This document shows, one piece after another, positions 40,236-56,347 of a stretch of 64,000 nt of DNA; position 1 is the first letter of the stretch; each line of letters begins with the position of its first letter. Source of the stretch: Streptomyces liliiviolaceus (GTDB lineage: Bacteria > Actinomycetota > Actinomycetes > Streptomycetales > Streptomycetaceae); NCBI RefSeq assembly GCF_018070025.1, contig NZ_JAGPYQ010000001.1, positions 5,580,001 through 5,644,000 on the forward strand, in the 5' to 3' direction. A model generated the notes under the pieces. It was not told where the DNA came from. It saw only the letters and a program-made list of their open reading frames with translations, and ran no database searches. The translations under genes were made by a program, and so were the position numbers.

Positions 40236-41257
40236 GTGCTGTCCAGACCTTTGCTGCGGCGCAGCAGCCACAGGAAGAACGGGGCGCCGAGCAGGGCGGT
40301 GAGGATGCCGAGCGGCAGTTCGTTGGGGCGGGTGAGGGTGCGGGAGAGCAGGTCGACGGCCACGAGGTAGACGGCGCCGAGGAGCGCGGTCAGGGGCAGC
40401 AGTCTGCGGTGGTCGGCCCCCGCCGTGAGCCGGACCAGGTGAGGGATCATCAGGCCGACGAAACCGACGCCGCCCGCGACCGCGATGACGGTGCCCGTGA
40501 GCAGCGCGCTGATCACCAGCAGGACGGCGCGCAACCGGTCGACGTCCACGCCGAGCGCGGTGGCGGACTCGTCGCCGGCCAGCAGGGCGTTGAGCCGCCG
40601 CCCGAACAGGGTGAGCAGGACGGTGCTCGCGAGGACCACCACCGCGACGGTGGGCAGTTGGTCCCACTGGGCGCCCGCGACGCTGCCGAGCATCCAGAAC
40701 ATCACGGTACGCAGTTCGGTGGGTGTCGCCATCAGCTGGACGAAGCTGGTCATCGACAGGAGGACGTAACCGACCGCGACCCCGGCCAGGACGAGCCGGG
40801 TGGGGGCCAGTCGGCCCTGCCGCTGCCCGAGGGCGAAGACCAGGGCCCCGGCCGCCAGGGCGCCGACGAACGCCGCGCCGGACACCCCCAGTCCGCCCAG
40901 CCCGCCGAGCGCGGCGCCGCCGAGGGTGATGACCAGTACGGCGCCCAGGGAGGCCCCGTACGAGAAGCCGAGGACGACGGGGTCGGCGAGCGGGTTGGAG
41001 ACCAGGGTCTGGAGGACCGCGCCGGCGACGGCGAGGCCCGCGCCGACCAGGGCGGCCAGGGCGACGCGGGGTGCTCTGAACGTCCAGACGATCTGGTCCA
41101 GCGCCGGGTCGCCGGTGGCTCCGCGGCCGGTGACATGGTGCAGGAGGACCGACCAGACGTCGGCCAGGGGGATGTTCACCGCGCCGATGCTCACCGCCAC
41201 CACCATGACGGCGACGAGGAGGACCAGCAGTGCGAGGGTCGCGAGCGGCAACCGCAC
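40232..41257 (-). CDS. ABC importer permease (FecCD type)
   Basis: A 341-residue polytopic permease: about nine to ten hydrophobic segments and the FecCD hallmark regions RAPRVALAALVGAGLAVAGAVLQTLVSNPLADPVVLGFSYGASLGAVL (residues about 60-105) and SAVAGGVGFVGLMIPHLVRLTAGADHRRLLPLTALLGAVYLVAVDLL (ATPase-coupling loop). The start is not sharp: the frame is open upstream for about 45 residues inside the binding-protein gene, but the GTG at 41257 begins directly before the first helix and was chosen. No good binding site is seen. A single permease gene suggests a homodimer. Confidence 0.85.
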   Translation of the reverse strand: MRLPLATLALLVLLVAVMVVAVSIGAVNIPLADVWSVLLHHVTGRGATGDPALDQIVWTFRAPRVALAALVGAGLAVAGAVLQTLVSNPLADPVVLGFSYGASLGAVLVITLGGAALGGLGGLGVSGAAFVGALAAGALVFALGQRQGRLAPTRLVLAGVAVGYVLLSMTSFVQLMATPTELRTVMFWMLGSVAGAQWDQLPTVAVVVLASTVLLTLFGRRLNALLAGDESATALGVDVDRLRAVLLVISALLTGTVIAVAGGVGFVGLMIPHLVRLTAGADHRRLLPLTALLGAVYLVAVDLLSRTLTRPNELPLGILTALLGAPFFLWLLRRSKGLDST

Positions 41258-41274: not shown

Positions 41275-42312
41275 TCAGAACGCGTCGGGGTGCAGCATCC
41301 CGGCGATCTTCGCGACGGCCAGGTCGTTGCTCGGGCCGAGGTACATAGAGTCCGACAGGGCCACGTACGTGTTGTTCTTCGCGGCCGGCCACTGGGGGAA
41401 CTCCTTCAGCAGTTTCCTGGCGTAGGCCGCCGGGTTCGGGTCGTTGTAGCCGATGACGACGAGTGCGTCGACGTCGGTGGCGGCCACCTTCTCCTTGCTC
41501 AGATCGGCGAAGGAGGTCTTGGAGGCCGACTCGAAGGCGTTGCTGCCGCCCGCCTTGGCGAGGATGTCGTTGTAGATGCCCTTGGCGACGACGGAGCTGA
41601 AGTCGTTGCCGCCCATGGCCATGTTGGAGAAGAGCACCATGACGTTGGGCCGCTTCTCGCCCTTCACCTTGGCCGCGACGCCGGCGATGTTCTTCTCCGA
41701 CGCGGCGATCAGCTGCTCGGCCCGGTTGCTCCGGCCGAAGACCCTGCCCATGTCCCGCAGGAGGGCGTAGCTGTCCGCGATCGTCATCTTCGAGGTGTCC
41801 TGGTCGCAGCCCTGCGGGGATACGTAGGTGTGGGCCCCCACGTCCTTGAGCTGCTCGCGGGTGGCGAAGCCGTTCTTCTCGTCGAAGCCGTAGGAGGTCG
41901 TGGACAGCACCAGGTCGGGGCGCAGGCCGATCATCGCCTCGCGCGGGACGTCGTACGCGTCGTTGAGCTTGACACCCCCGTCGGGCAGGCCCTTGACGGC
42001 CTTGGCGCGGCCTTCGACCTCGGACATCCCATAGCTCTGCTGGTTGGCGACGATGCTGTCGCCGAGGCCGAGGGCGAGCAGGGTGGAGACCTCCGCCACC
42101 GAGGCGCCGTTCATGACGACCACCCGGCCGGGAGCCTCGGTGAACTTCTGGGGCGTCCCGCAGTTTTCGAGGGTCACCGGGTAGCCCGACCTCGCCGCGG
42201 CGGCTGATGCCCCGCCTGAGGCATCTGCCGTGTCGGTCGCGTCGGCACAGGCCGTCGTGACCAGACAGAGGGCGCCGGCCAGGGCGACGGCGACCGGCCG
42301 TTTCTTCGACAT
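41275..42312 (-). CDS. ABC substrate-binding lipoprotein (FecB/BtuF type)
   Basis: A 345-residue lipoprotein with signal peptide MSKKRPVAVALAGALCLVTTAC (lipidated Cys at residue 22), then the PeripBP_2 fold: KFTEAPGRVVVMNGASVAEVSTLLALGLGDSIVANQQ, IGLRPDLVLSTTSYGFDE, and the clamshell half starting YALLRDMGRVF. This family binds metal-chelator complexes. First gene of an uptake operon whose promoter carries the SigC-type motif; the NRPS of the chalkophore operon ends 103 nt upstream. AAGGAG precedes ATG 42312. Chalkophore-copper uptake is inferred from this context; siderophore or haem transport is the main alternative. Confidence 0.85.
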   Translation of the reverse strand: MSKKRPVAVALAGALCLVTTACADATDTADASGGASAAAARSGYPVTLENCGTPQKFTEAPGRVVVMNGASVAEVSTLLALGLGDSIVANQQSYGMSEVEGRAKAVKGLPDGGVKLNDAYDVPREAMIGLRPDLVLSTTSYGFDEKNGFATREQLKDVGAHTYVSPQGCDQDTSKMTIADSYALLRDMGRVFGRSNRAEQLIAASEKNIAGVAAKVKGEKRPNVMVLFSNMAMGGNDFSSVVAKGIYNDILAKAGGSNAFESASKTSFADLSKEKVAATDVDALVVIGYNDPNPAAYARKLLKEFPQWPAAKNNTYVALSDSMYLGPSNDLAVAKIAGMLHPDAF

Positions 42313-42371
42313 GCGGGGCTCCTTGGTACGGGGGTGATACGGGGGTGGATCGACGGTGAGCGGCTCTGCAG

Positions 42372-42403
42372 CAGTAGTCGGAGGAGGGGACTGCCGAGTT
42401 CCC
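42372..42403 (-). promoter_or_regulatory. ECF-type promoter of the uptake operon
   Basis: On the minus strand, GGGAAC (42398-42403), a 17-nt spacer, then CGACTACTG (42372-42380). It lies 63 nt upstream of the ATG of the binding-protein gene. The same motif with the identical spacer heads the chalkophore operon (52424-52455) and the copper operon (56316-56347). Confidence 0.75.
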
Positions 42404-42415
42404 GGAGGTCCGTGA

Positions 42416-45400
42416 CTACTTCGGCGGTGGCGGCAGGATTCCGCTGGTGACGCAGTGGTCGAGGTAGCGGAGGACGAGGTCCTGGTCGACGGGCGGGCAC
42501 GTGATGCCACTGCCGCGCAGACCGTTCCTCACGTTGTCCGAGCGGATGCGGCCCAGTCGGAGGTCGAGTCCGGCGGGCTGCGCGTCCCGGGAGTCGAAGA
42601 AGGCGAGCGTGGTCGCCGCCGCGGAGGTCTCGGCGCCCGAAGTGGCCGCGGAGCGCCTCAGTTCGGCCAGCCACCGGGCCGTCGTCATGCGGCGCAGCGG
42701 GTAGCCGTACTCCTCCAGCCAGTCGTAGAGGTCGCTCAGGCGCACCGGGGCGGTGGCCGCGTGGTGGAAGACCGTGGCGTTCGGGGGGCGTTGTACGAGG
42801 CTGAGGTGGACGATGGCCCTGGCCACGTGGTCGACCGGTGTCCAGGTCTCCTCCTCGAACAGGTCGGGGACGATGCCCGCGGGCACTCCCGCGCGCAGCA
42901 CGCTCCACAGGAAGTCCCGCTCGTTCACGTAACCGGTGGTGTACGGGCCGACCACCCGGCCGAGCCGGTGCACGGTGACGGGCAGGCCCCTCTCCGCGGC
43001 CTGTTCCAGCAGGCGTTCGGCCGCCCACTTCGACTGCTGGTAGCCGGAGCGGAGCCCGGGGTGGGGCGGGAGGAAGGCTTCCGGTACTTCGCGGCTGAGC
43101 GCGAGCGGCGGGGCGACCGAGAGGGTCGACACATGGTGGAGAGGGGTGGAATGCGCCGCCGCCATGCGCAGGAGGTCCCTGGTCGACCGGGTGTTGGCGG
43201 CGCGCAGAGTGGCGTACTCGCGCAGGACGCTGACGGTCGCCGCGTTGTGGACGATCGCCCGGCAGGTACGGCCCAGTTCCGCGAAGTGCCCTTCGTCGAG
43301 GCCCAGTCGGGGGCGGGAGAGATCCGCGGGGATCGCGGTGATGCGCCGCAGTGCCGTGTCCGGAAGGTGGATCCGGTGGGCGTTCAGGGCCTCATGAACA
43401 CGGGCGGTGGCCTCGCCGGCGGTCCGGGCCCGGACGGTACAGACCACCTCGGGATGACCGACATCCGTGCCCGTGCCCGCGCCCGTGCTCGTGCTCGCGC
43501 CCGTCAGGAGTTCCGCCAGCAGGTGCACGCCGACGAAGCCCGTGGCACCGGTGAGGAGGATTCTGTCGGGGGTGTGTCCCGCCCGGGGTCCGTAACCGGT
43601 CCGGGGCCTGATGTCCGGGTCCAGGACGGTGTCTGCGAGCAGTCCGGCCGGCAGGCCGGCGGCGACGGACGGCTGCCGCGCCCGTGCCTGCCCTTCCAGG
43701 AATCCCGCCAGCGCGGCGGGGGTCGGGTGCTGGAAGAGCCAGGCGACCTTCACCTCGCGGTGGAGTTCGGTGCCCAGGCGGTTGGCGACCTGGATGGCCT
43801 GGAGGGACTGGGCGCCCAGGTCGAACACGTCGTCCTGCGCGGCGAGGGTCGCGACACCGAGCGCCCGCTGCCAGACGCCGGCGACGATCCGCTCCAACGG
43901 GCTGTCGTACGCGGCAGACGGGCTGTTGCACGCGGTCGGCGGGCTGTCGTACGCGGCCGACTGGTCTTCGGACACGACAGCCCGCGCGCCGGGGCGGGGC
44001 GCCTGTCGCGCGAGCGCGTCCCTGTCGGTCTTTCCCACGCCGGTACGGGGCACACGGTCCAGGAACTCGACGGCGGAGGGGATCATCGCGGCGGGAAGTG
44101 TCGCCCGGAGGTGGTTCCTGAGCAGGGTCGGCGCCGGGGGCGGGCCGTCCGCGACGACGAACGCGATCAGACGCCGTGTCCCGTCCTCCAGTACCTGACC
44201 GATGACGGCGGTGTCGCGGACGGCCGGGTGGGTGAGGAGCGCGTTCTCCACTTCGGCGGGGTGCACACGGTGGCCGCTGATCTTGAACTCCGCGTCCGCC
44301 CGGCCCAGATACCGCAGTCGGCCGTCGTCGCCGAGCCGTACCAGGTCGCCGGTGCGGTAGGCGCGGGGCGCTCCGGGGAGCCGGTCGAGCGGGGCGAAGC
44401 GGGACGCGTCCGGTGGCCGGGCGCCCCGGTAGCCAAGCGCCAGGTTGTCACCCAGGAGGTGGAGTTCACCGTCGACGACGGCGGCGCGGGTGCCGGGGAG
44501 GGGCGCTCCGATGGGGACGTCTCCCGCGGTGAGGGATTCGTCGTGCAGGTCGGCGACGGTGGCGACCACGGTCGCCTCGGTCGGGCCGTAGGTGTTCAGC
44601 AGCCGCACCGAGGTGCCGACCGCCTTGCGCCAGCGGTCGACGCGTTCGGGCAGGGCGGCCTCCCCGCCGATCACGACGGTACGTATCCCGGCGGGCAGGG
44701 CCGGGGTGTCGGCGGAGCCGGTCGACAGCGCGTGGGCCAGTTCGTGCCAGTAGGCGGTGGGCAGGTCGAGGAAGCTGATCCGCAGCCGTGCGCAGGCGTT
44801 CAGGAAGCCGGGGACCGAGTCGGTCATGTCGTCGTCGCGGACGACGAGCGTGGCGCCCCGGCACAGGGTGAGGAAGACCTCCTCGACGCTCGTGTCGAAG
44901 TGCAGGGGGGCGAACTGCAGCACACGGTCCGCCCGTCGGAGGCCGTAGCGGTGGGTGGCACCGGCCACGAAGTGCGCGAGGGCGCGGTGACCGATCTCCA
45001 CGCCCTTGGGGCGCCCGGTGGAACCCGAGGTGTGGAGGACGTAGGCGAGGTCGTCCGGCGCGGGTGCCGGAGGCTGCCGAGCGCTGGCCTTCTGGGGCTC
45101 CTCCAGTGCCGTTTCGGTGGTCAGGACGAGCGCGGGGCGGGCGTCGTCCAGCAGCTGCGCCCTGCGAGCCGGAGTCGCGGTCGGGTCGAGCGGGCAGTAG
45201 GCGGCCCCCGACAGCAGGACCCCCAGGACGGTGGTGACGGCCTCGATGCCGCGCGGCAGGACGACGGCCACCAGATCGCCGCGGCCGATCCCCCGGGCGG
45301 TGAGTCGGCGGGCCGTCTCCCCTGCCGCGTCGAGCAGTTGTGCGTAGGTGACGGCTCGCCCGGCGTGCTCGACGGCGACGGATCCGCCGCGCCGGGTTGC

Positions 45401-46795
45401 GTGTTCGGCGATCAGGTCGAGGACCGGGCGGGCGGGACCGGGCAACGGCCCGCCGTCCAGGACCTGGATGTCCGGGCGGGAGTGCGGGCCGAGGAGCGCC
45501 CCGAGGGGAGCGGAGAGCGCGCGGTCGAGCAGGAGGAGCAGTTCCTCCTGGAACACGGCGACGTCCGCCTCTTCGTAGAGACCGGGGTGGGCGTCCACCG
45601 CGATGCGCGGTCCCCCGCCCTCGGCGCGGTCGTACACGTTCACGGAGAGGTCGTCGACCGGGCCCGCGGAGACGTTGTGGACTGTGCTGGGATGTCCGGC
45701 GAACCGCAGGTCGTACGCGAAGGGCATGATGTTGACGCCCGGCCCGGACAGTCGGCGCTGTCCGCCGACGAGCCTGAGGTCGCGCCGCAGTCGCTCGTAG
45801 CGGTAGCGCTGGTGCGGCAGGCCCGCACGCAGTTCGGCGGAGATCCGCAGGGCCAGGTCACGCACGCTGTCCGCCGGGGAGACGGCGACGCGCAGGGGCA
45901 GGATGTTACGGACCATGCAGGGCACGCGCAGGGCGACGGAACCGAGCCGGCCCATCGTGGGCAGGCTGAGGACGAGCTCCGGTGCGCCGGTGGCCCGGTG
46001 CAGCTGTGCGGCCGTCACGGCCAGCAGGATCTCCGACCAGGTGACCTTCAGTTCGCGGGCGACCGTACGCAGAGCCTGCGTACGGGCCGCGCCGAGGTCG
46101 ACGACCCGGCGGTGGAAGGTGCGTGCGGGCAGGGCCGTACGGCCGGCCGGGGTGGCCACCGGCGGACGGTCCGCGAACCGGCCCGTCCAATAGGCGCGGT
46201 CCTCGGCGAAGCGGGGCGACTCCTCGTAGGCGCGTTCCTCGTCCCGTACGGAGGCCAGGGTGCCGAAGCCGCTGTCCCCCGTCGGCTCGCCCCTCATCAG
46301 GGCGGTGTACACCTGGGCGACCCGGCGGGCGACCAGGGACAGTCCGAAACCGTCGAGGGCGATGTGGTGCACCCGGTGGTACCAGAGGTGTTCCCCCGGT
46401 GCGATGCGCAGCAGCGCGTGGCCGAAGAGCGGACCGGTCGTGAGGTCGACGGGACGAGCCATGTCCGTGTCGATCCAGGCCAGGGCGGCAGCGTACGGGT
46501 CGGGTTCGGCGGTGAGGTCGGCGATGTGCAACCGCCAGTCCCCGGCCGGGGTTTCCCGCTGCCAGGGCCGGCCGTCCGCGTCGGCTTCGAAGGAGACGTT
46601 CAGGGCGGGGGTCTCCGCGACGACCTGGTGCAGCGCGGAGCCGAAGACGGCCGGGTCCACCGGTCCAGCGATGTGCACGTACTCGGCCGTGTTGTACGCG
46701 GGGCTGTCCGCGTCCAGTTGCTGGCCGGTCCAGATGGCCTCCTGGGCGGCCAGCAGTGGGTGGCGGCCCGCCGTGCCGCCGTCAGGCGCCGGCAC
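42416..46795 (-). CDS. scoA: Isonitrile-lipopeptide NRPS (C-A-PCP-reductase, ScoA-like)
   Basis: A 1459-residue single-module megasynthase. C domain: HHIALDG at residues 143-149. A domain: [14 protein letters not shown] at about 585-598 and YGPTEAT at 736-742, RTGDL at 814-818, GKT at 921. [14 protein letters not shown] with the phosphopantetheine Ser at 997. Terminal reductase domain: [18 protein letters not shown] at 1079-1096. My hand alignment gives the specificity residues D-T-E-D-V-G-T-V-V-K, with acidic Glu/Asp suggesting a basic amino acid such as lysine or ornithine. GTG at 46795 overlaps the ACP gene by 14 nt. Together with its neighbours it matches the ScoA/MmaA enzymes that join isonitrile acyl chains to a diamino acid and release the product reductively. 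Confidence 0.9.
43899..43961. repeat. Three 21-bp tandem repeats in the NRPS A-PCP linker
   Basis: The units 43899-43919, 43920-43940 and 43941-43961 (gggctgtcgtacgcggcagac type) code for the linker repeats AAYDSP/TACNSP/AAYDSP. A probably expandable in-frame linker. Confidence 0.8.
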
Positions 46796-47084
46796 GGTCC
46801 GCTCCCTCCTGGCGTGACTGGCGTGACTGAGGTGACTGACGCGCTTGACGTGCCTGGCGCGTGGAGAGCAGGTGCCACCACTGGGCGAACGAGGTGCACT
46901 CGGCGAGTTCGACGAAGTTCACGTCCAAGCCGGTCTCTCGCCAGCGTTCGATGAGGGTGACGATGCGCAGGGAGTCGAGGCCCGCGAGGAGGGGGCTCTC
47001 TTCGAGGTCGACTTCGTCGGGCCGCTGGTACAGGAACTCCGCGAGGTCCGCGCGGAATCCGTCCAGGGTGAGGGGAGCAGGCAT
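46782..47084 (-). CDS. Stand-alone acyl carrier protein of the isonitrile operon
   Basis: A 100-residue ACP. The carrier motif is LLAGLDSLRIVTLIERW with the phosphopantetheine Ser at residue 38; the helix pattern RADLAEFLYQRPDEVDLEESPL is typical. The last 25 residues (RQARQARQSPQSRQSRQEG) are a basic low-complexity tail. In the Sco/Mma pathway a free ACP carries the enoyl-acyl chain to which glycine is added before oxidation to the isonitrile. Its 3' end overlaps the NRPS start by 14 nt. The 71-bp gap to the ligase gene has short repeats of the type gctcggcacttggc. Confidence 0.9.
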   Translation of the reverse strand: MPAPLTLDGFRADLAEFLYQRPDEVDLEESPLLAGLDSLRIVTLIERWRETGLDVNFVELAECTSFAQWWHLLSTRQARQARQSPQSRQSRQEGADRAGA

Positions 47085-47155
47085 GTGGTCTCTCTCGTTG
47101 ACGCTTGACGCTCGGCACTTGGCGCTCGGCACTTGGCACTGGGGCTGTGCCGCGG

Positions 47156-48766
47156 TCAGTTGACCTTGCGGGCGGAGGCGCTCCAGAAGCGGTCGCGCAG
47201 TTCCCGGCGCAGGATCTTGCCGCTGGGGTTGCGCGGGACGCTGTCGATCAGCTCGTAGCGGGCCGGCAGCTTGAAGCCCGCGAGCTGCGGGACGAGGAAG
47301 GTGTGCAGGTCCCGGGGTGTGGGCCGGTGCTCGGGAGCGGGGACGACGAAGGCGTGGACGTACTCGCCCCAGCGTGCGTCGGGGGCGCCGACGACGACGG
47401 CCTCGGCGACGCCGGGGTGGCCTTCCAGGACGTTCTCGATCTCGGCGGGGTAGACGTTCTCGCCGGCGACGAGGATGGCGTCCTTGATGCGGTCCCGGAT
47501 GACGACGTAGCCGTCCTCGTCGATGTATCCGGCGTCCCCGGTGTGGACCCAGCCGTCGACGAGGACCTCCGCGGTCTTCTCGGGCAGTCCCCAGTACTCG
47601 ACCATGTGCGCGGGTGTGGCCAGGCACACCTCTCCGACTGCGCCCGGCGGCAGTTCGCGCCCCTCGGCGTCGATCACCTTGGCGCGCACGCCCGGATAGG
47701 GCCGTCCGGCCGCCTGCATGAGGGAACTGCCGGGGACATGGGCGGCCGGCGGCAGGCACACCGCGGTGTTGCCGGTCTCGGTGAGGCCGTAGATCTGGGC
47801 GAACTCGCAGTTCACGACGGTGAGGCTCTCCTCCAGGAGTGCCTCGGAGATCGGGGAGCCGCCGTAGACGACTTTGCGCAGGGTGGTGAAGTCCTCTGCT
47901 CCGACGCCCGGTTCGCTGAGCATCATGCGGAGCATGGCGGGCACGACGCACGCGGTGGTGATGCCGAGGTCCCGGATGAGGCCGACGGCCTCGCGGGCGT
48001 CGAAGGCGCGCATCGCGACCACGGTCGTGCCCGCGTTGAAGTTCTGGGTGGCCCACCACAGACCGCCGACGTGGAAGCCTGGGATACCGATGAGCGCGAT
48101 GTCGCCGGTGCGCCAGTCGATCCAGTCCAGTCCCTCGCTCGCCAGGGCGTCCCGGATCGCGAAGAAACTGCGGTGGGCGAGGACGACACCCTTGGGCAGT
48201 CCGGTGGTGCCGCTGGTGTAGAGCTGGGCGGCCGGGGTGTCGGGGGTGACGTGCGGCGGCGGGTCGGTGTCCGGGCGGGCGTCCGGCTCGGTGTCTGACT
48301 CGGTGTCCAGGTCGGTTTCCGGGTGGGACGCCTTCCATGCGGAGAAGCCATCGTCCAGCGCGACGATCGTCTCCGGGGGCGCGCTCGGCATCCGCTCGAC
48401 GGTCGGCCCGAACTCGGTCTCCAGGAACAGCAGTCGGGCGCCCGAGTCCTGGAGGACATGGCCGACCTCGGGCGCGGCGAGCCGCCAGTTGACGGGGACG
48501 AGGACGGTGCCGCTCTTGGCGCACCCGAACAGCACCTCGTAGTAGTGCTCCGACTCCTTGCCGAGGTAGGCGACCCGGTCGCCCGGTCGGAGCCCGGCGG
48601 CCCGGAGGGCATGGGCGATGCGGTTGCTCCCGCTGTGCAGTTGCCCGTACGTCAGCGTGCGGCCCTCGCAGAGCACGGCGGGGGTGGTGGGCCGGTGCTC
48701 GGCGTGGAAGCTCGCCGTCTGGACGAGCGTCCGGAGCTGTGGGTGGTGGAGTCTGTCCGGGGTCAT
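47156..48766 (-). CDS. Acyl-ACP/acyl-AMP ligase (FadD10-like)
   Basis: A 536-residue adenylate-forming enzyme that activates a fatty acid with ATP and loads it on the ACP next door. Motifs: YTSGTTGLPKG at 183-193, the acyl-pocket region GGLWWATQNFNAGTTVV, YGLTETGNTAV, and GWVHTGDAGYIDEDGYVVIRDRIKDAILVAGENVYPAEIE with the catalytic Lys near the end in NPSGKILRRELR. An unusual Asp/Thr/Pro-rich insert (residues about 150-176) lies before the P-loop. It is the ligase of the isonitrile pathway. ATG 48766 has GAGGAGAG 4-5 nt upstream. Confidence 0.9.
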   Translation of the reverse strand: MTPDRLHHPQLRTLVQTASFHAEHRPTTPAVLCEGRTLTYGQLHSGSNRIAHALRAAGLRPGDRVAYLGKESEHYYEVLFGCAKSGTVLVPVNWRLAAPEVGHVLQDSGARLLFLETEFGPTVERMPSAPPETIVALDDGFSAWKASHPETDLDTESDTEPDARPDTDPPPHVTPDTPAAQLYTSGTTGLPKGVVLAHRSFFAIRDALASEGLDWIDWRTGDIALIGIPGFHVGGLWWATQNFNAGTTVVAMRAFDAREAVGLIRDLGITTACVVPAMLRMMLSEPGVGAEDFTTLRKVVYGGSPISEALLEESLTVVNCEFAQIYGLTETGNTAVCLPPAAHVPGSSLMQAAGRPYPGVRAKVIDAEGRELPPGAVGEVCLATPAHMVEYWGLPEKTAEVLVDGWVHTGDAGYIDEDGYVVIRDRIKDAILVAGENVYPAEIENVLEGHPGVAEAVVVGAPDARWGEYVHAFVVPAPEHRPTPRDLHTFLVPQLAGFKLPARYELIDSVPRNPSGKILRRELRDRFWSASARKVN

Positions 48767-48783
48767 GCGGCTCTCCTCTCGTG

Positions 48784-49311
48784 TCAGGGGACGTTGACGA
48801 ACGCCAGGACCGCTCTGCCGTCGCACCGGCCCGATGCGGCGTCCCAGTAGCGGTGGACGGTCTCCGCGTGCAGGAAGGGGGAGCCGTCGCCCAGGGTGCG
48901 CCGGGTGACGGAGCGGAATTCCATCTCCCCGGAAAAGGCACGGGGGTCGACGGGACGCCGGAAATTCATGGCGAACCGGGCGATGAGGATGTCGGGGAGC
49001 TGATGCTTCCAGAAATCGTCCAGCGTCCAGGACTCGAACCCCGCCAGCAGCCCCTCTTTCACGGACTTGGCGACGAGGTAATACATCATCTGGTTGTAGC
49101 AGATGTTCACCTCGACGGAATTCAGATGCCCTGTGTCGTCGATGTAGCACGACTCCGGGATCGCGAACTCACAGCGGGCGGACGCCTGTCCGTCGCCCTC
49201 GGACACGACGACGGCCGAACGCAGGTATTTGCAGTGGTCCTTGTAGGGCGTCAGTACCCGCGCCAAAAGGTGCTCGTCCATGGGGTGCTCGACGGCGAGG
49301 AGGCTCGTCAT
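48784..49311 (-). CDS. scoD: FcoT-like thioesterase (ScoD-like)
   Basis: A 175-residue hot-dog-fold protein: [74 protein letters not shown]. The tract [13 protein letters not shown] and the Asn/Glu residues after it match the FcoT/ScoD family, which in this pathway adds glycine to the beta carbon of the acyl-ACP enoyl chain. ATG 49311 overlaps the oxidase stop (ATGA). An inner ATG (49281, [10 protein letters not shown]) may also be used. It sits between the oxidase and the ligase, the conserved order of the pathway. Confidence 0.85.
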
Positions 49312-50198
49312 GCCGCCCCGATTCCGTCGTGGAGTTTGCGTTCGTCGTGCACGGTGACGCGGAAGGAGACGGTCGGCTCGGGTGTGGTCGTGTGCCGGGC
49401 GCGGTGGATGAGACTGCGGTTGTCCCAGACCAGCAGGTCGCCCTGCTCGAATCCCTGCAGGTGGATGTTGCCGTGCTCGAAGGTCTCGTCGAGCTGGCCG
49501 GTGGCCTCGAACAGGCGCTTGAGCAGCTCCTCGTCGAGCGGCTCCCCGTCCCGGTCCTCGATGCCGACGGTGAATCCCTCACTGAGATAGAGAACGGTCT
49601 CGCCGGTCATGGGATGGGTGAAGGTGGTCGGCTGCCTGACGGCCGGGGTCTTCCGCTCGACCTCCTCGATGATCTCGGAGATGGGCCGGTAGACGTCATG
49701 GGGCCGGATCTTGAAGTACTTGCGCACGGAGTGCCGGCAGTACGTTCCGTCGATCTCCTTCTTGAGCTCCTGGGGCAGTCCGTCGTACGCCCGGCCCATG
49801 TCGATGAAGTACGTGCCCCTGTTCTTCGCCGGAATCACCTGGGGATATATCAGGGTGATGCCGAAGGGGTCCGGCATGAACTGGTAGTCGGCGTGCCAGA
49901 ACTTTCCGGTCCTCGGTACGCCTATCTGCTGTCCGTTCTCCGGAACATTGGAGGAGACGAATATCTCCGTGACCTCCGGGTGGTGGTACATGGGCTCGTA
50001 GTACGTCTCCGGGCGGCCGAGTCGCCTGCCCAGTGCGAGGAACTCCTGGGGAGAGAGGTCCTGTCCCTTCAGGACGGCGATCTTCTTCGTGTAGACGGCG
50101 TTCTTGAGGGCGTCGATGTCGGCGTCGGAGGCGTCTGCGTGGTCGAAGCCCTCGACGATCACACCGATCGCGTCGCCGGGCTGGTCCTGAATGCGCAT
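49308..50198 (-). CDS. scoE: Non-haem iron oxidase of isonitrile formation (ScoE-like, TauD family)
   Basis: A 296-residue Fe(II)/2-oxoglutarate-type enzyme: the metal motif is HAD (His102, Asp104 in [13 protein letters not shown]), with a distal His at 265 ([10 protein letters not shown]) and the cosubstrate Arg at 280 (SFRVTV). It matches ScoE, which oxidises and decarboxylates the N-linked carboxymethyl group to an isonitrile. The internal ATG 50198 has its own GGAAAGG, 8 nt upstream. However, the preceding MFS gene has no stop and reads straight into this frame (see the fusion entry), so the oxidase may be made both alone and as a fusion. Confidence 0.9.
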
Positions 50199-51596
50199 GG
50201 CGTGTGCCTTTCCTGGAAGGGTGATGTCCGTCGACCGGTGGCGGGCGAACAGAGTGAGCGCGCCGCAGCCGATGCCCGACGCGATGACGAGCACTGCGGT
50301 GCGGATGCCGTCGAGGAGGGCGGGACCGGAGGCGTTCTGCCCGATGCCGCCGGCCGTCGCGACCAGTACGGCGAGGCCCACGGCGCCGCCGACCTGCAGG
50401 GCGGTCGACGCCATTCCGGAGGCGACGCCCTGGTCATCGGGGGCGACCCCGGCGGACGCGGCGATCCACATGCCCGTCCAGGCCGCTCCTTGGCCGAGGC
50501 CCAGCAGGACGATCCCTGGCAGCAGCGCGGCGTACGAGCCGTCGGAGGTCAGCGCCGGAGCCAGTGCCACGGCTCCGGCCGCGCCCAGCGCCGTCCCGCC
50601 CACCAGCATGCGGCGGACGCCGACGACGGACACGGCCCGCTCACCGGCCTGCGTACCGACGGCGACCACGAGGGCGGGGACGAGGAACGCGAGCCCGGTG
50701 GCGGCGGCGCCGTATCCCTGGACGGTGCGGAAGTAGAGGGTCAGGAAGTACGGGACCGAACTGAAGGTGGCACCGAACAGGGCGGCGATGCCCATGGCGG
50801 TGAGCAGACCGCGGTGGCCGAGCAGCCGTGCGGGCAGGAGCGGATCACGGGACCTGCGCTCCACCACGGCGAAGAGCGTCAGCAGTCCGAGGGAGAGCAC
50901 GGCGCTCACGAGGACCGTGGGCGTCCCCCAGCCCTCGGCGGGTGCCCGCACCAGCACGAACACCAGGAGGGTGATACCGCCCGTAGCGGTCAGCGCACCC
51001 GCCGCGTCGAAGTTGCGCGAGCGGTCCCGCGGTCCGTCGGCGGGGAAGAGCAGCCGTCCGGCCACCGCGAGCGCTCCCGCCACGGGCACGTTGACGAAGA
51101 ACACCGACGGCCAGCCGAACGCCTCCACCAGCACCCCGCCGAGCAGGGATCCGAAGCACAGCCCGCCGGCTCCCGCGGCGCCCCAGACCGCCAGGGCACG
51201 GTTCCGCTCGCGCCCCTCCGCGTACAGGGTGCCGATCAGGGACAGCGTCGCCGGGAACAGCAGGGAACCGCCGATGCCCTGGACCGCCCGGACGGCGACC
51301 AGGACGCCGGGTGACTGCGACAGGCCGCCCACCAGGGACGAGCCCGCGTAGAGCAGCGCCGCGACGACGAACATACGGCGTCGGCCGAGGAGGTCCGCGG
51401 CCCGGCCGCCCAGCAGGAGGAAACCTCCCGTGGCCACGACGTAGGCGCTCACCACCCACTGCAGGTCGTGGTCGGAGAAGCCCAGCCCGGCGCCGATGTC
51501 GGGCAGGGCGACGTACACGATGTTGTAGTCGAGCGAGATGACGAGCTGCCCGAGCGCCAGCACGGCCAGCGGAAGCCCGAGCGGATTGCGCGTCAC
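49308..51596 (-). CDS. MFS exporter fused in frame to the ScoE-like oxidase
   Basis: One frame of 762 codons. Residues 1-466 are a 14-helix DHA2-type MFS pump ([39 protein letters not shown], then the last helix near [18 protein letters not shown]), and residues 467-762 are the ScoE-like oxidase. I checked the join: ...[23 protein letters not shown]... has no stop. The GTG at 51596 overlaps the hydroxylase stop (GTGA). With 14 helices the C-terminus would be in the cytosol, so a working fused enzyme is possible. It probably exports the product and, as a fusion, would place the last biosynthetic step at the membrane. Confidence 0.8.
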
Positions 51597-52357
51597 CCGC
51601 CCCGAACGAGCCGGCGCACCTCGGTCACGAGCGCCTCCAGTGCCCGGCGCTCCGGCACGGTGGTCTCCGGATGCCAGAGGTCGATGAGCAGACAGGTCCG
51701 CGGTGCGGTGCCTTCGTTGCGCGCCTCGTGCTCGAACGAGTAGTCGAAGAGCAGACATTTCCCCTCCTCCCACGAGCGCGTTTCTCCCGCGACCGTGATG
51801 CTGCACCCGTCTGGAATGTCCACGGCGAGGTGCAGATTGATGCTGAAGTTCCACAGGTCGCAATGGGGTGCGATGACGGCGCCGGGCAACAGCGTGGAGA
51901 AATGGCATTCCAGGAGAGGGCACAGGATTCCCGTGTCCACGGCGGAGTCCTTCAGCACTCGGTACGCGGTGGGAGCGATACCCGCCGATTCCTCGACGAG
52001 GCCGCCGTCGCGGAAGAGATGGAGCGCCTGCCAGTTCCGCTGGCGTGTCAGATAGTGCTCGTAGTCCGAGAACGCCTCGCGGCGGGCGGTCCATGCGGAA
52101 CCGATCTCCTTCCTGATGGCCCGATGATTGGCCTCCAATTCGCTTACGAAGGGGGCCAGTTCCGTATGGGCGTGGGGATCGTGCCAGGGGGTGGGAGAGA
52201 TTCCCGGCATGACCCACTTGGCCGTCTTCTGCAGTGGATGCCTTTCGCCCCTGCCCGCCGCCAGCATCTGCTCGACCCGGTCGATCGAATCCTTTCCGTA
52301 CTCGGCTCTGATCGCGGCGAAGGCGTCGTCTATTTCTGGTGTCACACGGTTCTCCAT
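51593..52357 (-). CDS. Aspartyl/asparaginyl beta-hydroxylase-like oxygenase
   Basis: A 254-residue protein with the Asp/Asn beta-hydroxylase fold in its C-terminal half: [66 protein letters not shown]. Candidate iron ligands are His in APHCD and His in FEHEARN; the family often uses just two His. The N-terminal half ([18 protein letters not shown]) is helical and not familiar. It is the first gene of the isonitrile operon, 70 nt from the SigC-type promoter, and would hydroxylate the amino acid or the lipid. The core Sco/Mma set does not include such a gene. Confidence 0.75.
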
Positions 52358-52423
52358 GTCCCGCGTCCCGTGCCGCCGACGACCTCGCGCGACGGTCGGC
52401 GTTCCGGGTCTGCGCTTTCACCT

Positions 52424-52455
52424 CAGTAGTCGGCCATCGGTGCGCGGGAGTTCCC
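52424..52455 (-). promoter_or_regulatory. ECF-type promoter of the chalkophore operon
   Basis: On the minus strand, GGGAAC (52450-52455), a 17-nt spacer, then CGACTACTG (52424-52432), 70 nt upstream of the first gene of the isonitrile operon. Same sequence and spacing as in the uptake operon and, apart from one base, the copper operon. Confidence 0.75.
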
Positions 52456-52473
52456 GGGAATTCGCGGGATTTC

Positions 52474-53103
52474 TCATTCTGTCCGGGCGAGGAGTTCGAC
52501 GAGGGTCGCGCGGGCCCGGGCCACCCGTGACCGGATCGTCCCGACGGCGCAGCCGCTGAATTCGGCGGCCTCCTCGTAGGCCAGCCCGGCCAGTTGGGTG
52601 AGGACGAACGCCTGGCGGCGCTCGGGCGCCAGCGTGTCCAGCAGGTCGAGCAGCGCCACGCCTTCCTCGAAGCCGGGCAGTCCGCTGGGCCGTGTCAGGT
52701 CGGCGCAGGCCGTCCAGTCGTCCGTGTCGGCCAACCGCGGCCGTGCGGCGGCGTACCGCACACTGTCGACGACCGTTCGGCGGGCGATGGACAGCAGCCA
52801 GGTGCGCGCCGACGAACGCCCCTCGAACCGGTGCAGGCTGCCCAGCGCCCGCAGGAACGTGTCCTGCGCCAGATCGTCGGCGGCCTGGTGGTCGGCGCCG
52901 ACGTGGGTGAGGTAGCGGACGACGTCGGGACGCAGGGCGCGCACGAACCGGTCGACGGCATGGGGGTCGCCGCCCCGGGCGGCCAACGCCCAGGCGGTGG
53001 CCGCCTCGTCACGCGACTGCGACGTGCCGAGTTCCGACGTGCCGAGTTCCGTCGGGTCTGGTTCCGACGTGTCAGGTTCAGCTGCGCCGGGTTCCGCCGT
53101 CAC
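52474..53103 (-). CDS. SigC-like ECF sigma factor
   Basis: A 209-residue ECF sigma factor. Region 2: [70 protein letters not shown]; region 4: [51 protein letters not shown]. It closely resembles Mycobacterium SigC, including the [12 protein letters not shown] and [23 protein letters not shown] blocks. The first ~30 residues are an acidic, repeated T-E-L-G-T-S stretch. GTG at 53103 overlaps the PCuAC gene stop (GTGA). It is the last gene of the copper operon, whose promoter has the motif that also heads the chalkophore and uptake operons; no anti-sigma gene was seen. Confidence 0.85.
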
Positions 53104-53609
53104 CGGCCCGGCCGGTCCACGACCGCGTCACTCCGTACGGCCCCGCTGCGCTCGAAGTGCAGGGTGAACGTCACGAGGTCGCCGATCCGCCAGTCCGCGT
53201 CCACCGGCACGATCACGTCGAGGCTGTTCGGGGACATGGAGATGCCGGCGCCGGCCGGTACCGGGACCGAGGTCACCGTCCGGGCGGAGGCCGAGCGGGC
53301 GCCGGTCATGCGATGGCGGCTGAGGGTGGTGGCGCCGGCCCCGGTGGCCGTCACCTTGAGCAGCCGGTCCGCCGAGCCTCCCGTGTTGGTGATGCGGAAG
53401 AAGGCCGCCGTCTCCGGGGTGTCGCCGGTGGGCAGGAACAGGCGTCCGCCGGTGACCGCGATCCGGGCCGGGCTGCCCGCGTTGCCGAGGACGGTCCACA
53501 TGCTCAGACCGCCGAGGGCGAGGACGGACGCGGCGACGGGCGCGAGCGCGGCGAGCAGGGTGTCGCCGAGTCGGCGGCGCGTCGGCCGCCAGAGGGCCTG
53601 GTCGGTCAT
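53100..53609 (-). CDS. PCuAC-like copper-binding membrane protein
   Basis: A 169-residue protein with an N-terminal membrane helix (LGDTLLAALAPVAASVLALGGLSMWTVLG) and a beta-barrel domain of the PCuAC type (ITNTGGSADRLLKVTATGAGATTLSRHRMTGARSA). The first HxM-like motif is present as RHRM, and a Met follows (GISMSPNS), but the usual second HxM region reads LDVIVPVDAD, so one copper ligand set appears lost. The domain would face outside and pass copper on. Overlaps the ATPase stop (ATGA) and the sigma factor start. Confidence 0.7.
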   Translation of the reverse strand: MTDQALWRPTRRRLGDTLLAALAPVAASVLALGGLSMWTVLGNAGSPARIAVTGGRLFLPTGDTPETAAFFRITNTGGSADRLLKVTATGAGATTLSRHRMTGARSASARTVTSVPVPAGAGISMSPNSLDVIVPVDADWRIGDLVTFTLHFERSGAVRSDAVVDRPGR

Positions 53610-55963
53610 CGGACACGCCTCCTGGCGGCGGGTGAGGGCTGCCAGGCGCGCAGGCGCAGGCTGTTGGCGACGACCAGCACCGAGCTGGCCGACATGGCCG
53701 CCGCGGCGAGCATCGGATTGAGCAGGCCGACCATGGCGAGCGGCACGGTGACGGCGTTGTAGCCGAAGGCCCACACGAGGTTGGCGCGGATGGTGCCCAG
53801 CGTGCGGCGGGCGAGCAGGACCGCGTCCGCGAGGGCTTCGATGCCGCCGCGCACGAGCGTCACGTCGGCGGCCCCGATGGCCACGTCGGTGCCGCCGCCC
53901 ATGGCGATGCCCAGGTCGGCACCGGCCAGCGCGGCGGCGTCGTTGACCCCGTCGCCGACGACCGCGACCCGGTACCCCTGCCCCTGCCCCTGCCCCTGCC
54001 CCTGCCCCTGCCCCTGCCCCTGAAGGTTCCGTACGAGGTCGGCCTTGTCCTCGGGGGTGTGGCGGGCGTGCACCTCGTCGATCCGCAGGGCGGACGCGAC
54101 GGCCCTGGCGGGCGCCTCCCGGTCGCCGGTGGCGAGCACGGGGCGCACTCCCAGGTGGCGCAGTCGCTCGACGGCCCGGTAGCTGCCGGGCCGTACGACG
54201 TCGCCGATCGCGATCAGGGCTTCGACCGTGCCGTCGACCCGGACCAGCACGGGCGTGTGCGCGGCTGCTTCGGCCGCCGACAGGGCGTCCGCGAGCGCGG
54301 GGGGCAACTCGTCGTCCGGGGCGAGCACTTCGACGAGCCGCCCCTCGACCCGGCCGCGCACTCCCCGCCCCGGCATCGCACGGAACTCGCTCACCCCAGG
54401 AACTCCGGATGCCCCCGGCGCTTCCGGCGCTTCCGGAACTCCCGCGCTTCCCGGCGGCTTCCGACCGGCGGTCGACTCCCGCCGCGCGTACGCGGTGACG
54501 GCCCGGCCGAGCGGGTGTTCCGAGGCCTGCTCCACGGCCCCCGCCAGGCGCAGCACCGCGTCCCTGCCGAGTCCGTCCGGTACGGCGGTGACCGCGGTGA
54601 CGCTCATGTGGCCGGAGGTGAGGGTGCCGGTCTTGTCCAGGACGACGACGTCCACGTGCCGCAGCCCCTCCAGGGCCTGCGGGCCGGTGACCAGGACGCC
54701 GAGCTGGGCGCCCCGCCCGGTCGCGGCCATCAGCGCGGTCGGGGTCGCGAGGCCCAGCGCGCAGGGGCAGGCCACGACCAGGACGGCCACGCACGCGGTG
54801 ACGGCAGCCTGGACGTCGGCACCGGCGCCCAGCCAGAAGCCCAGGGTGGTCACGGCCAGCGCCAGCACGACGGGCACGAACACACCGGCCACCGTGTCGG
54901 CGAGCCGCTGGGCGCGCGCCTTGCCGGTCTGCGCCTCGGTGACCAGCCGGGTGATACGGGCGAGCTGCGTGTCAGCGCCGACCGCCGTGGCCCGTACGCG
55001 GAGCAGCCCGCCGGAGTTGACGGCCCCGCCGACCACGGCCGAACCGGGCCCGACCTCGATCGGTTCGGCCTCGCCGGTGACCAGGGACAGATCCACGGCG
55101 GAACTGCCCTCCGTCACCCTGCCGTCGGTGGCGACCCGCTCCCCCGGCCGCACCACGAAGACCTGACCGGCCCGCAACTCCGCGATGGGGACGAGCCGTT
55201 CGGTGCCGTCGACGACGACCGCCACCTCCTTGGCGGCGAGCCCCGCCAGCGATCTGAGCGCCGCTCCGGTCCCGCGCCGGGCCCTCGCCTCCAGGAAGCG
55301 GCCCGCCAGGACGAACAGCGGTACGCCGACCGCCGCTTCGAGGTAGATGTGCGGGACGCCGTCCGGGGCGGAGGGCACGAGCGAGAACGGCATGCGCATC
55401 CCGGGATCACCGGCTCCGCCGAGGAAGAGCGCGTACGCCGACCAGGAGAAGGAGGCCAGTACGCCCAGCGACACCAGGGTGTCCATGGTCGCCGCGGAGT
55501 GCCGCAGACCGCGTACCGCGCGGGTGTGGAAGGACCAGGAGCCCCACACGGCGACGGGCGCGGTGAGGGCGAAGCACAGCCACTGCCAGTTGCGGAACTG
55601 CAGGGCGGGCACCATCGACAGGACGAGCACGGGCAGGGCGAGCAGGGCCGTGACGATCAGCCGGTCGCGCGCGGACCTCGTGTCCTCGGAGCCGTCGTCG
55701 TCCGTGGTTCCCGGCTGCTCGCTCCGGGGCGGTTCGGGCAGGGCCGCGGTGTATCCGGCCTTCTCCACGGTCGCGACGAGTTCACCGGGGCCGATGCCCG
55801 CCGGGTGGGTCACGCGGGCCGTGCCGGTGGCCAGATTGACGGTCGCCGTGACCCCCTCCAGCCTGCCCAGTCTCTTCTCCACCCGGTTCACGCAGGCCGC
55901 GCAGGTCATCCCGCCGACGGTCAGATCGGTGGTGACCAGGGTGGTCATCGGTTCCGCGCCCAT
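53606..55963 (-). CDS. Copper-transporting P-type ATPase (CopA/CtpB type)
   Basis: A 785-residue P1B-type ATPase. It has an N-terminal heavy-metal domain (GGMTCAAC at 17-24), the ion channel motif CPC at 399-401 (VVACPCALGLATP), the phosphorylation motif DKTGT at 443-447, EHPLG in the nucleotide domain, and VAVVGDGVNDAAAL near residue 690. CPC marks Cu(I). Unusual: a Pro/Gly/Ala-rich insert after TAGRKPPGSAG and eight Gln-Gly repeats before GYRVAVVGDG. It would move Cu(I) across the membrane. ATG 55963 overlaps the small gene upstream (TGATG). CtpB of M. tuberculosis is the closest role model in this context. Confidence 0.9.
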   Translation of the reverse strand: MGAEPMTTLVTTDLTVGGMTCAACVNRVEKRLGRLEGVTATVNLATGTARVTHPAGIGPGELVATVEKAGYTAALPEPPRSEQPGTTDDDGSEDTRSARDRLIVTALLALPVLVLSMVPALQFRNWQWLCFALTAPVAVWGSWSFHTRAVRGLRHSAATMDTLVSLGVLASFSWSAYALFLGGAGDPGMRMPFSLVPSAPDGVPHIYLEAAVGVPLFVLAGRFLEARARRGTGAALRSLAGLAAKEVAVVVDGTERLVPIAELRAGQVFVVRPGERVATDGRVTEGSSAVDLSLVTGEAEPIEVGPGSAVVGGAVNSGGLLRVRATAVGADTQLARITRLVTEAQTGKARAQRLADTVAGVFVPVVLALAVTTLGFWLGAGADVQAAVTACVAVLVVACPCALGLATPTALMAATGRGAQLGVLVTGPQALEGLRHVDVVVLDKTGTLTSGHMSVTAVTAVPDGLGRDAVLRLAGAVEQASEHPLGRAVTAYARRESTAGRKPPGSAGVPEAPEAPGASGVPGVSEFRAMPGRGVRGRVEGRLVEVLAPDDELPPALADALSAAEAAAHTPVLVRVDGTVEALIAIGDVVRPGSYRAVERLRHLGVRPVLATGDREAPARAVASALRIDEVHARHTPEDKADLVRNLQGQGQGQGQGQGQGQGYRVAVVGDGVNDAAALAGADLGIAMGGGTDVAIGAADVTLVRGGIEALADAVLLARRTLGTIRANLVWAFGYNAVTVPLAMVGLLNPMLAAAAMSASSVLVVANSLRLRAWQPSPAARRRVR
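53975..54022. repeat. Eight-copy hexamer tract in the copper ATPase gene
   Basis: cccctg (CAGGGG on the coding strand) is repeated eight times without interruption, coding for (Gln-Gly)8. Slippage would change protein length in 2-residue steps and never the frame. Confidence 0.9.
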
Positions 55964-56259
55964 CAGCGGCCTTCCTCGTGCGTGTCACCCATACCGCCCA
56001 TGTCCCCGCCGCCTCCGCCGTCCCCCATGTCGTCGGCCCCTCCGGAGCCGGAACCGGTGCCGGGGTCCGTACCGGTGCCGCTCGTACCGGCCGAGCCGTG
56101 CATTCCGGGTGCGACGGGTCCGGCGGACGCTCCGGCGGCGTAGGAGGCCGTGAAGAGGAGTGCCAGCAGCAGGAGGAAGCCGCAGAGGGCGGGCGGGGGT
56201 GCCGTTCTCCGCAGGAACGGTGCCGCACCGGTTGCGGGGGATTGCCGGGGCTCGTCCAT
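55963..56259 (-). CDS. Small membrane protein with Met/Asp/Gly-rich tail, first gene of the copper operon
   Basis: A 98-residue protein: one hydrophobic helix (LCGFLLLLALLFTASYAAGASAG, residues about 26-48), then a Gly/Ser/Asp-rich tail with GMHGS, DDMGD, DMGGMGDTHEEG. The spaced Met and His residues could bind Cu(I) outside the cell, but this is inference; no known family was recognised. GGAG lies 9 nt upstream of ATG 56259. It is the first gene of the copper operon, 60 nt from the SigC-type promoter, and its stop overlaps the ATPase start. Confidence 0.7.
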   Translation of the reverse strand: MDEPRQSPATGAAPFLRRTAPPPALCGFLLLLALLFTASYAAGASAGPVAPGMHGSAGTSGTGTDPGTGSGSGGADDMGDGGGGGDMGGMGDTHEEGR

Positions 56260-56315
56260 CAACCGCGTCTCCAGGTCACGTCGTACGGCGTCGCCGGGAT
56301 CGCGCCGAACCGCCC

Positions 56316-56347
56316 CAGTAGTCGGCCCGGCCGCGGGCGGGGTTCCT
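56316..56347 (-). promoter_or_regulatory. ECF-type promoter of the copper/sigma operon
   Basis: On the minus strand, AGGAAC (56342-56347), a 17-nt spacer, then CGACTACTG (56316-56324), 60 nt upstream of the first gene. As the operon includes the sigma factor gene, the factor would activate its own synthesis. Confidence 0.75.

Follow-up and report, generated by a model that had tools for sequence, protein, structure and literature searches.

The element considered here is a promoter-like motif that occurs three times on the minus strand of a 64,000-nucleotide stretch of the Streptomyces liliiviolaceus genome (hereafter the window; contig NZ_JAGPYQ010000001.1, positions 5,580,001 to 5,644,000): ahead of a copper/sigma operon, a chalkophore operon and an uptake operon (Table 1). 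The genes behind the first site encode a 98-amino-acid (aa) protein, a CopA-type ATPase, a PCu(A)C copper chaperone and an extracytoplasmic function (ECF) sigma factor. Because these genes abut or overlap, the PCu(A)C gene sharing 4 nucleotides (nt) with the CopA gene and again with the sigma gene, they are very likely served by that site as one operon. The 98-aa protein matched no Pfam family, and a similar protein precedes CopA in relatives. Downstream of the second site lie, in order, genes for an Asp_Arg_Hydrox protein, a major facilitator superfamily (MFS) exporter joined to a ScoE-type enzyme, an FcoT-like thioesterase, an acyl ligase, an acyl carrier protein (ACP) and a nonribosomal peptide synthetase (NRPS), and downstream of the third lie the FecB, permease and ATPase genes. 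All components of a diisonitrile chalkophore cluster (ScoE, FcoT, acyl ligase, ACP and NRPS) are present, the acyl ligase being recognized by eye. As the ScoE part passes its curated equivalog cut-off (NF049937; 530.9 bits against 400), the genes support a predicted product of the diisonitrile type. The MFS and ScoE parts form a single 762-aa frame in the window (49308-51596) and two separate genes in S. dioscori (locus L386; L and G numbers denote the loci and genomes compared).

Table 1. Promoter-like sites and genes of the three operons, in window coordinates
Feature	Position	Strand	Context or evidence
Promoter-like site AGGAAC-N17-CGACTACTG	56316..56347	-	Upstream of copper/sigma operon
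98-aa protein, one hydrophobic stretch, Met/His-containing tail	55963..56259	-	Copper operon gene 1; translation
CopA-type P-type ATPase with HMA domain	53606..55963	-	Pfam E1-E2_ATPase, HMA; NCBIfam TIGR01511, 477.6 bits, cut-off 397
PCu(A)C copper chaperone	53100..53609	-	PF04314, 1.5e-16
SigC-like ECF sigma factor	52474..53103	-	Sigma70_r2, r4_2
Promoter-like site GGGAAC-N17-CGACTACTG	52424..52455	-	Upstream of chalkophore operon
Asp/Arg hydroxylase-type protein (Asp_Arg_Hydrox)	51593..52357	-	PF05118; chalkophore operon gene 1
MFS exporter and ScoE-type oxygenase/decarboxylase, one open frame	49308..51596	-	MFS_1, TauD; 762 aa
FcoT-like thioesterase	48784..49311	-	PF10862, 6.5e-64
FadD10-like acyl ligase, putative	47156..48766	-	Named by position and eye, open frame only
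Acyl carrier protein	46782..47084	-	PP-binding in frame
NRPS C-A-T with terminal NAD-binding (reductase) domain	42416..46795	-	Domain matches
Promoter-like site GGGAAC-N17-CGACTACTG	42372..42403	-	Upstream of uptake operon
FecB-type substrate-binding protein	41275..42312	-	PF01497, 4e-21, scored on longer frame 41275-42510
FecCD-type permease, putative	40232..41257	-	Translation; named by eye and position
ABC ATPase of uptake system	39423..40235	-	PF00005, scored on longer frame 39423-40667

A preliminary description of this DNA had placed the three sites at these positions, and a pattern scan recovered each of them, with the nine -10 bases identical throughout. The two GGGAAC copies belong to a pattern that found no match in 100 shuffled versions of the window. 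The distances of 63, 70 and 60 nt given in that description result from subtracting the start-codon coordinates (42312, 52357 and 56259) from that of the final CGACTA base at each site; counted from the end of CGACTACTG, the gaps are 59, 66 and 56 nt. As had also been claimed, scanning the window with GGAAC-N17-CGACTACTG gave no copy beyond these three. The motif could have proved common elsewhere in the genome; it is rare, with four exact matches in 11.13 Mb against one for the reversed pattern. Three of the four fall inside 14 kb, and spacers of N16-18 returned the same four and none besides. The fourth match (C1:6167567-6167597, minus strand, 0.53 Mb from the window) lies 57 nt upstream of a gene for a 482-aa PepSY_TM/PepSY protein. 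A six-base -10 (CGACTA) was dropped as a signal, GGAAC-N16-18-CGACTA giving 14 genome matches against 15 for its control; specificity resides in the full nine -10 bases, the first six alone being nonspecific. A GGAAC-like -35, a conserved -10 and fixed spacing together make up the layout of an ECF-type promoter, as far as sequence alone can define one.

Each site has an equivalent in relatives. That of the copper operon recurs upstream of the small protein and CopA in L080, L102, L126 and L384-L388 (L385 being the L080 contig), that of the chalkophore operon at the matching place in L384 and L386, and that of the uptake operon between NRPS and FecB in L100, L115 and L125. To describe the targets more broadly, we collected 99 N17 sites (one a duplicate) from hand-picked match regions plus the window, 80 of the regions coming from among the matches listed. 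Targets were grouped by similarity of the chosen downstream frame, family names being checked on examples only. FecB-like binding proteins (26 sites) and PepSY_TM proteins (24) were the largest groups, followed by methyltransferases (9), ABC-ATPase-first or mis-picked frames (6) and the small protein before CopA (5). CopZ-like proteins (sites 7 and 76, by eye), DJ-1/PfpI, PCu(A)C, FecC and one further group had two sites each, and the remainder were single or unassigned. The DJ-1/PfpI family presumably includes isonitrile hydratases, and a role of these targets in chalkophore breakdown is possible. Methyltransferase-type genes, one of which was scanned, stand behind the motif in L113, L124, L144 and L172. 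Sites 11, 14 and 43, a near-identical match across genomes that reads like the end of an upstream frame, were set aside as a probable coding coincidence.

A position matrix was built from 60 of the 99 sites judged trustworthy; it includes PepSY sites of other genomes and is thus tuned to PepSY. Outside the search pattern these 60 sites have T after GGAAC in 87% and G before it in 80%, with a downstream C in 88% and a downstream G in 82%, giving the extended consensus ccGGGAACTc, then CC-CGACTACTG-gAnCG. We applied the matrix to 20 regions upstream of PepSY_TM genes, from 19 genomes that have no exact site anywhere and one (G244) that has. The proteins are at least 68% identical in 19 of the 20 cases; that of G120, at 63%, lies below the line used for orthologue counts. 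In nineteen regions, 40-150 nt before the start, GGAAC (GGAGC in G142) is followed at N17 by a CGAC-type -10; one of these sites is exact and 18 are variants. They score 13.9-40.8, whereas 40 shuffles per region reached 8.8 at most; the remaining region (L348) is truncated at a contig end. None of 20 promoters of PepSY paralogues (about 55-63% identical; 10 genomes with the sigma factor and 10 without) had a site, the best score being -3.0. Those of L364-L366, L368 and L375 have another element in common, CTCCTAGGACAGTC.

The spacing is rigid. Searching with the window sigma factor found 68 named loci, of which 66 were counted (L449 and L451, not Streptomyces, were excluded), and exact-GGAAC sites above 15 bits were tallied; these loci overlap the source set of the matrix (the 31,673-base contig of L385 is evidently that of L080) and are not independent of it. 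There were 73 sites with N17, one each with N15 and N16 and none with N18 or N19, against two in reversed sequence, both N17; 21 of the 66 loci had no N17 site at this threshold. Forty-five of the 73 precede a recognized gene (PepSY 12, small protein 8, FecB 7, CopA 6, AspHyd 5, DJ-1 3, partner protein 2, PCu(A)C 1, MFS 1). The other 28 were unassigned by rule, and by reading some of these stand before chalkophore MFS, FecB and methyltransferase genes.

We then asked whether motif and sigma factor occur together in 246 genomes of the genus, scanned for the motif with N16-18 and for the window sigma protein at an E value of at most 1e-20. Named relatives of this protein are nearly all Streptomyces, and a homologue is present in 176 of the genomes. 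Motif matches were found in 110 of these 176 (182 sites) and in 7 of the 70 without a homologue (7 sites; Fisher p 7.5e-15), while searching with the pattern reversed yielded 81 and 28 sites, respectively. Since matches to the reversed pattern are not rare, one exact match says little by itself; what counts is the contrast between genomes with and without the sigma factor. PepSY orthologues (at least 68% identity; 90 genomes) are distributed in the same way, in 85 of 176 genomes with the factor and 5 of 70 without (p 1.8e-10). FcoT, the chalkophore marker, occurs in only 24 of the 246; set against 176 genomes with a sigma homologue, this indicates a regulon wider than the chalkophore.

The sigma factor itself belongs to the ECF group, with matches to PF04542 (9.9e-18) and PF08281 (6.1e-14) that are both over their cut-offs. 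It had been described as SigC-like and as part of the copper operon. The overlapping genes and the best PDB match, M. tuberculosis SigC (2o7g, 9.6e-24), bear this out, but the protein scores 157.3 bits against a cut-off of 219 for the SigC equivalog NF007231, and its best-scoring equivalog, NF009187, is likewise under its cut-off (172.9 against 290). We therefore call it SigC-like rather than SigC. Its closest relatives (88-93%) are in S. dioscori, S. tauricus and S. aurantiacus, with similar operons, and a paralogue 73% identical is encoded in the same genome at C1:7178011-7178556.

Across the class, a sigma homologue (E at most 1e-25) was present in 61 of 296 genomes and the exact pattern in 36; the 22 of these outside the genus hold 24 sites, 15 with N17 and 9 with N16. 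In 20 sigma regions outside the genus, CopA- or CtpB-like genes adjoin in five, PepSY genes are nearby in four and an FcoT-NRPS cluster is present in one; further regions have, by eye, PCu(A)C and Dyp-type genes, one of the latter checked. One group of genomes was taken for Mycobacterium from its PPE genes and from SigC proteins over the equivalog cut-off in L249, L251 and L255. There, PPE genes divergent from SigC-type genes carry GGAAC-N17-CGAC sites resembling the motif in four loci (scores 12.8-17.3). Other non-genus sites of this kind stand upstream of two PepSY genes (16.3 and 19.3), a PCu(A)C gene (17.6) and a zinc-finger gene (14.5). In L249, L251 and L255 the SigC-type sigma is in one long frame after a zinc-finger, plus DUF2275 membrane domains (two scanned). 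Such a zinc-finger-DUF2275-SigC frame was matched in 77 of 118 genomes of this genus and over its full length in 36, three of which contain internal stops, and its first part is possibly a fused anti-sigma factor. For M. tuberculosis, a short SigC start is reported to have been shown experimentally (PMC2897130).

These observations suggest that the three window sites and the PepSY_TM site are promoters of the SigC-like ECF factor from the copper operon and make up one copper-acquisition regulon, a reading to which we assign a probability of about 0.8. By the sequence comparisons, we take the motif to be a genuine promoter type that is widespread among genomes of the genus and linked to the SigC-like factor. 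That the window operons form one regulon, as the preliminary description proposed, appears well supported by the co-occurrence of motif and sigma factor, the PepSY_TM regions and the N17 rigidity, although its framing around the chalkophore was too narrow; copper acquisition is the best reading of what the regulon is for. The evidence is computed (sites, rarity, spacing, extended consensus, conservation, copper-linked targets and co-occurrence with the factor). From it we infer that the factor recognizes the sites and that the PepSY_TM protein acts as a reductase, and from gene content and the SigC literature in other genera that copper starvation is the signal. GGGAAC(T) would be recognized by region 4 of the factor and CGACTACTG by region 2, the two elements lying a rigid 17 nt apart. 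Copper shortage, the likely trigger, would lead the factor to drive its own operon in a positive feedback, consistent with the earlier claim of self-activation and with the motif before the copper operon both here and in relatives such as L384-L388, and to turn on chalkophore synthesis and export and FecBCD-type uptake. The PepSY_TM protein, as a further target, may reduce Cu(II) outside the membrane, and copper would reach cuproenzymes on its outer face by way of CopA and PCu(A)C.

Several results weigh against this reading. Total matches in the 246 genomes are 189 for the true pattern and as many as 109 for the reversed one, and the co-occurrence statistics ignore shared ancestry. Seven genomes without the sigma factor have a motif match, and in five a PepSY orthologue follows the motif, which is exact in G099, G139 and G164 and variant in G142 and G163; for G164, an assembly of about 60 contigs, a missed sigma gene is no more than a guess. 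Conversely, 49 of the 176 genomes with the factor have neither an exact site nor a PepSY orthologue, about nine of 20 sigma regions examined contain none of the copper reference genes, and some sites precede methyltransferase or unassigned genes. The expectation that the motif would also precede sigC-like, copper and isonitrile genes elsewhere held within the genus and was weak beyond it: exact N17 sites occur in 5 of 41 genomes with the factor and 9 of 227 without (p 0.046), a weak tie, and the sites of two CtpB-like genes (11.5-12.6) are at background level, with stray matches reaching 12.7.

Of the alternatives, the one that survives best is that transcription from the sites depends chiefly on the paralogous sigma factor (C1:7178011-7178556) or on another ECF factor, the window factor being a self-amplifying follower or uninvolved. 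The paralogue is encoded in this genome and has an upstream partner protein ending in RGPP that the window copy is without (see below), but the motif heads the window factor's own operon, and the two have been kept together in L384-L388; we consider this unlikely. The conserved block could instead be an operator, overlapping the promoter and bound by a copper-responsive repressor or activator, so that it would be more than a set of sigma contacts; this would explain why conservation continues past the -10 into GAnCG, which seems far out for an ECF promoter. Yet a GGAAC -35 with a second block at fixed spacing is the ECF layout, and two blocks 17 nt apart, the co-occurrence with the sigma factor and the absence of sites from all 20 paralogue promoters make such an operator improbable. 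CopA-type ATPases usually export copper, and the presence of CopA and PCu(A)C in the regulon, together with the two CopZ-like targets, could be taken as a response to copper excess; uptake and chalkophore genes would be harmful under those conditions, however, and the SigC precedents respond to shortage, so that this idea is very improbable and was rejected, as was a regulon confined to the chalkophore. Chance or composition-driven similarity, for which the reversed-pattern matches in the genus might speak, is scarcely credible in the face of the spacer rigidity and target enrichment, and was likewise rejected.

In relatives, the sigma gene often has a neighbour that the window copy lacks. Upstream of 130 of 181 sigma frames (from loci of at least 3 kb from L080 on, duplicates included) lies a gene for a His/Met-rich, membrane-type protein of some 200-260 aa, for example at L084:9317-10012 (-). 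The 51 frames without it are mostly in loci outside the genus; seven partner-less loci are cut near the sigma gene (L124, L137, L144, L166, L168, L172 and L421), and in L386 (S. dioscori), L388, L427 and L443 the partner is missing despite upstream sequence. The partner matched no Pfam or NCBIfam family. Its search returned 2841 relatives; among the 120 listed, those with names are Streptomyces, and annotations include hypothetical, integral-membrane and PE-PGRS protein. It has four long predicted helices, and its AlphaFold model has a mean predicted local distance difference test score of 59.6. R[AG]PP lies within the last 30 residues in 129 of 130 pairs, L408 being the exception. This C-terminal RAPP/RGPP upstream of a same-strand gene is the sequence signature of an arrest peptide. 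RAPP and RGPP ends are reported as arrest signals, and ribosomes are reported to stall on the S. lividans four-helix proteins SLIV_33595 and SLIV_33605, whose genes precede those of ECF sigma factors and whose role is given as unknown (PMC12992588). The partner's conserved stretches fit the description of these two proteins, a likeness by description rather than by sequence, and its end resembles theirs and that of Bordetella CruR; arrest is shown for the S. lividans pair, while in the partner the motif is read from sequence only.

From the partner's stop codon to the sigma domain the median distance is 231 nt (5-95%: 123-409), more than simple masking of a ribosome site would lead one to expect. 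The stop codon lies within a hairpin: in 55 of 92 filtered stretches, 83.0% of cells pair, and slid controls reach 32-49%. Double changes occur at 7 of 13 pairs, a count attained in 6 of 500 shuffles, and in 21 cells, where the shuffles average 8.4 and none of the 500 comes up to that number; yet double-change cells are more numerous in two of the six slides, and pairs with double changes in one. A covariation model over the entire gap gave little signal (energy -8.1, from a gappy alignment), and the partner end with its downstream sequence folded to a mean of -45.5 against -41.5 for shuffles (sd 6.7), the RGPP codons having no constant pairing. In the window, the patterns tried revealed neither a partner nor a hairpin; PCu(A)C overlaps the sigma gene, with no arrest-type end upstream, while the paralogous sigma gene at C1:7178011 retains an RGPP-ending partner. 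Tentatively, and at somewhat less than even odds, we propose that a copper-binding membrane protein senses copper during its own synthesis, and that stalling at RGPP keeps the stop-codon hairpin open, so that the downstream SigC-like factor is expressed and turns on the copper-acquisition regulon through GGGAACT-N16-CGACTACTG, across Streptomyces and in some other actinobacteria. The window strain would have lost the sensor from its copper operon, its factor being a self-amplifying follower of the sensor-keeping paralogue.

Two further features concern the copper and chalkophore genes of this genome. The CopA gene contains eight perfect copies of a 6-base unit (window 53975-54022), encoding a Gln-Gly run just N-terminal of the GDGVND motif that is not in the ten relative loci compared (two of them the same contig). 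A second FcoT gene lies at C1:6419137-6419613, and a matrix scan of its region (L302, C1:6410000-6429000) gave no convincing site, the best scoring 11.5 with N16.

The closest known system is the SigC regulon of M. tuberculosis, where SigC is reported to prevent copper starvation and to upregulate ctpB and the nrp genes (PMC7924339); the link to copper shortage, ctpB and the nrp operon is also reported in PMC9147137 and PMC9600254. The two have in common a SigC-like factor, a diisonitrile-type cluster and P-type ATPase targets (there ctpB and ppe1-nrp, with copper shortage measured), and in the window common sites precede both an nrp-type chalkophore operon and an operon with a CtpB-like ATPase, a correspondence drawn from the DNA. 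Unlike M. tuberculosis sigC, which is reported to be monocistronic and, by a cited title, non-auto-regulatory, the window gene is inside a copper operon behind its own motif. Targets of the window type also include FecB-type and PepSY_TM proteins, most genomes have no FcoT, and the factor falls below the SigC equivalog cut-off. In C. glutamicum, the regulon of the ECF factor sigma-C is likewise reported to be activated under copper deprivation, and the target described is cydABCD; the likeness is one of description, not sequence (PMC7337898). The chalkophore cluster resembles those of Streptomyces SF2768 and mycobacterial nrp in its ScoE, FcoT, acyl ligase, ACP and NRPS with reductase domain, and differs in having a promoter type in common with copper uptake and chaperone genes; it is known from its genes. 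CrpH, reported as a copper-linked PepSY_TM protein of a copper-regulated operon, is of the same family as the PepSY_TM target and is tied to copper and heme-copper oxidases, a comparison at family rather than subfamily level (PMC13038864). Among the papers listed by a literature search, with most subscription journals outside it, none dealt with this Streptomyces promoter or regulon.

Taken together, our results predict which promoter and which targets belong to an ECF factor that has homologues in 176 of the 246 genomes sampled in the genus, and would join chalkophore synthesis, metal uptake, copper chaperones and a PepSY_TM protein in a single response to copper hunger. They open to test what keeps SigC-type factors off when copper is plentiful, for which zinc-finger proteins adjoining the sigma factor or in frame with it are other candidates outside the genus. 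They also point to a possible function for the arrest peptides whose genes precede those of ECF sigma factors.

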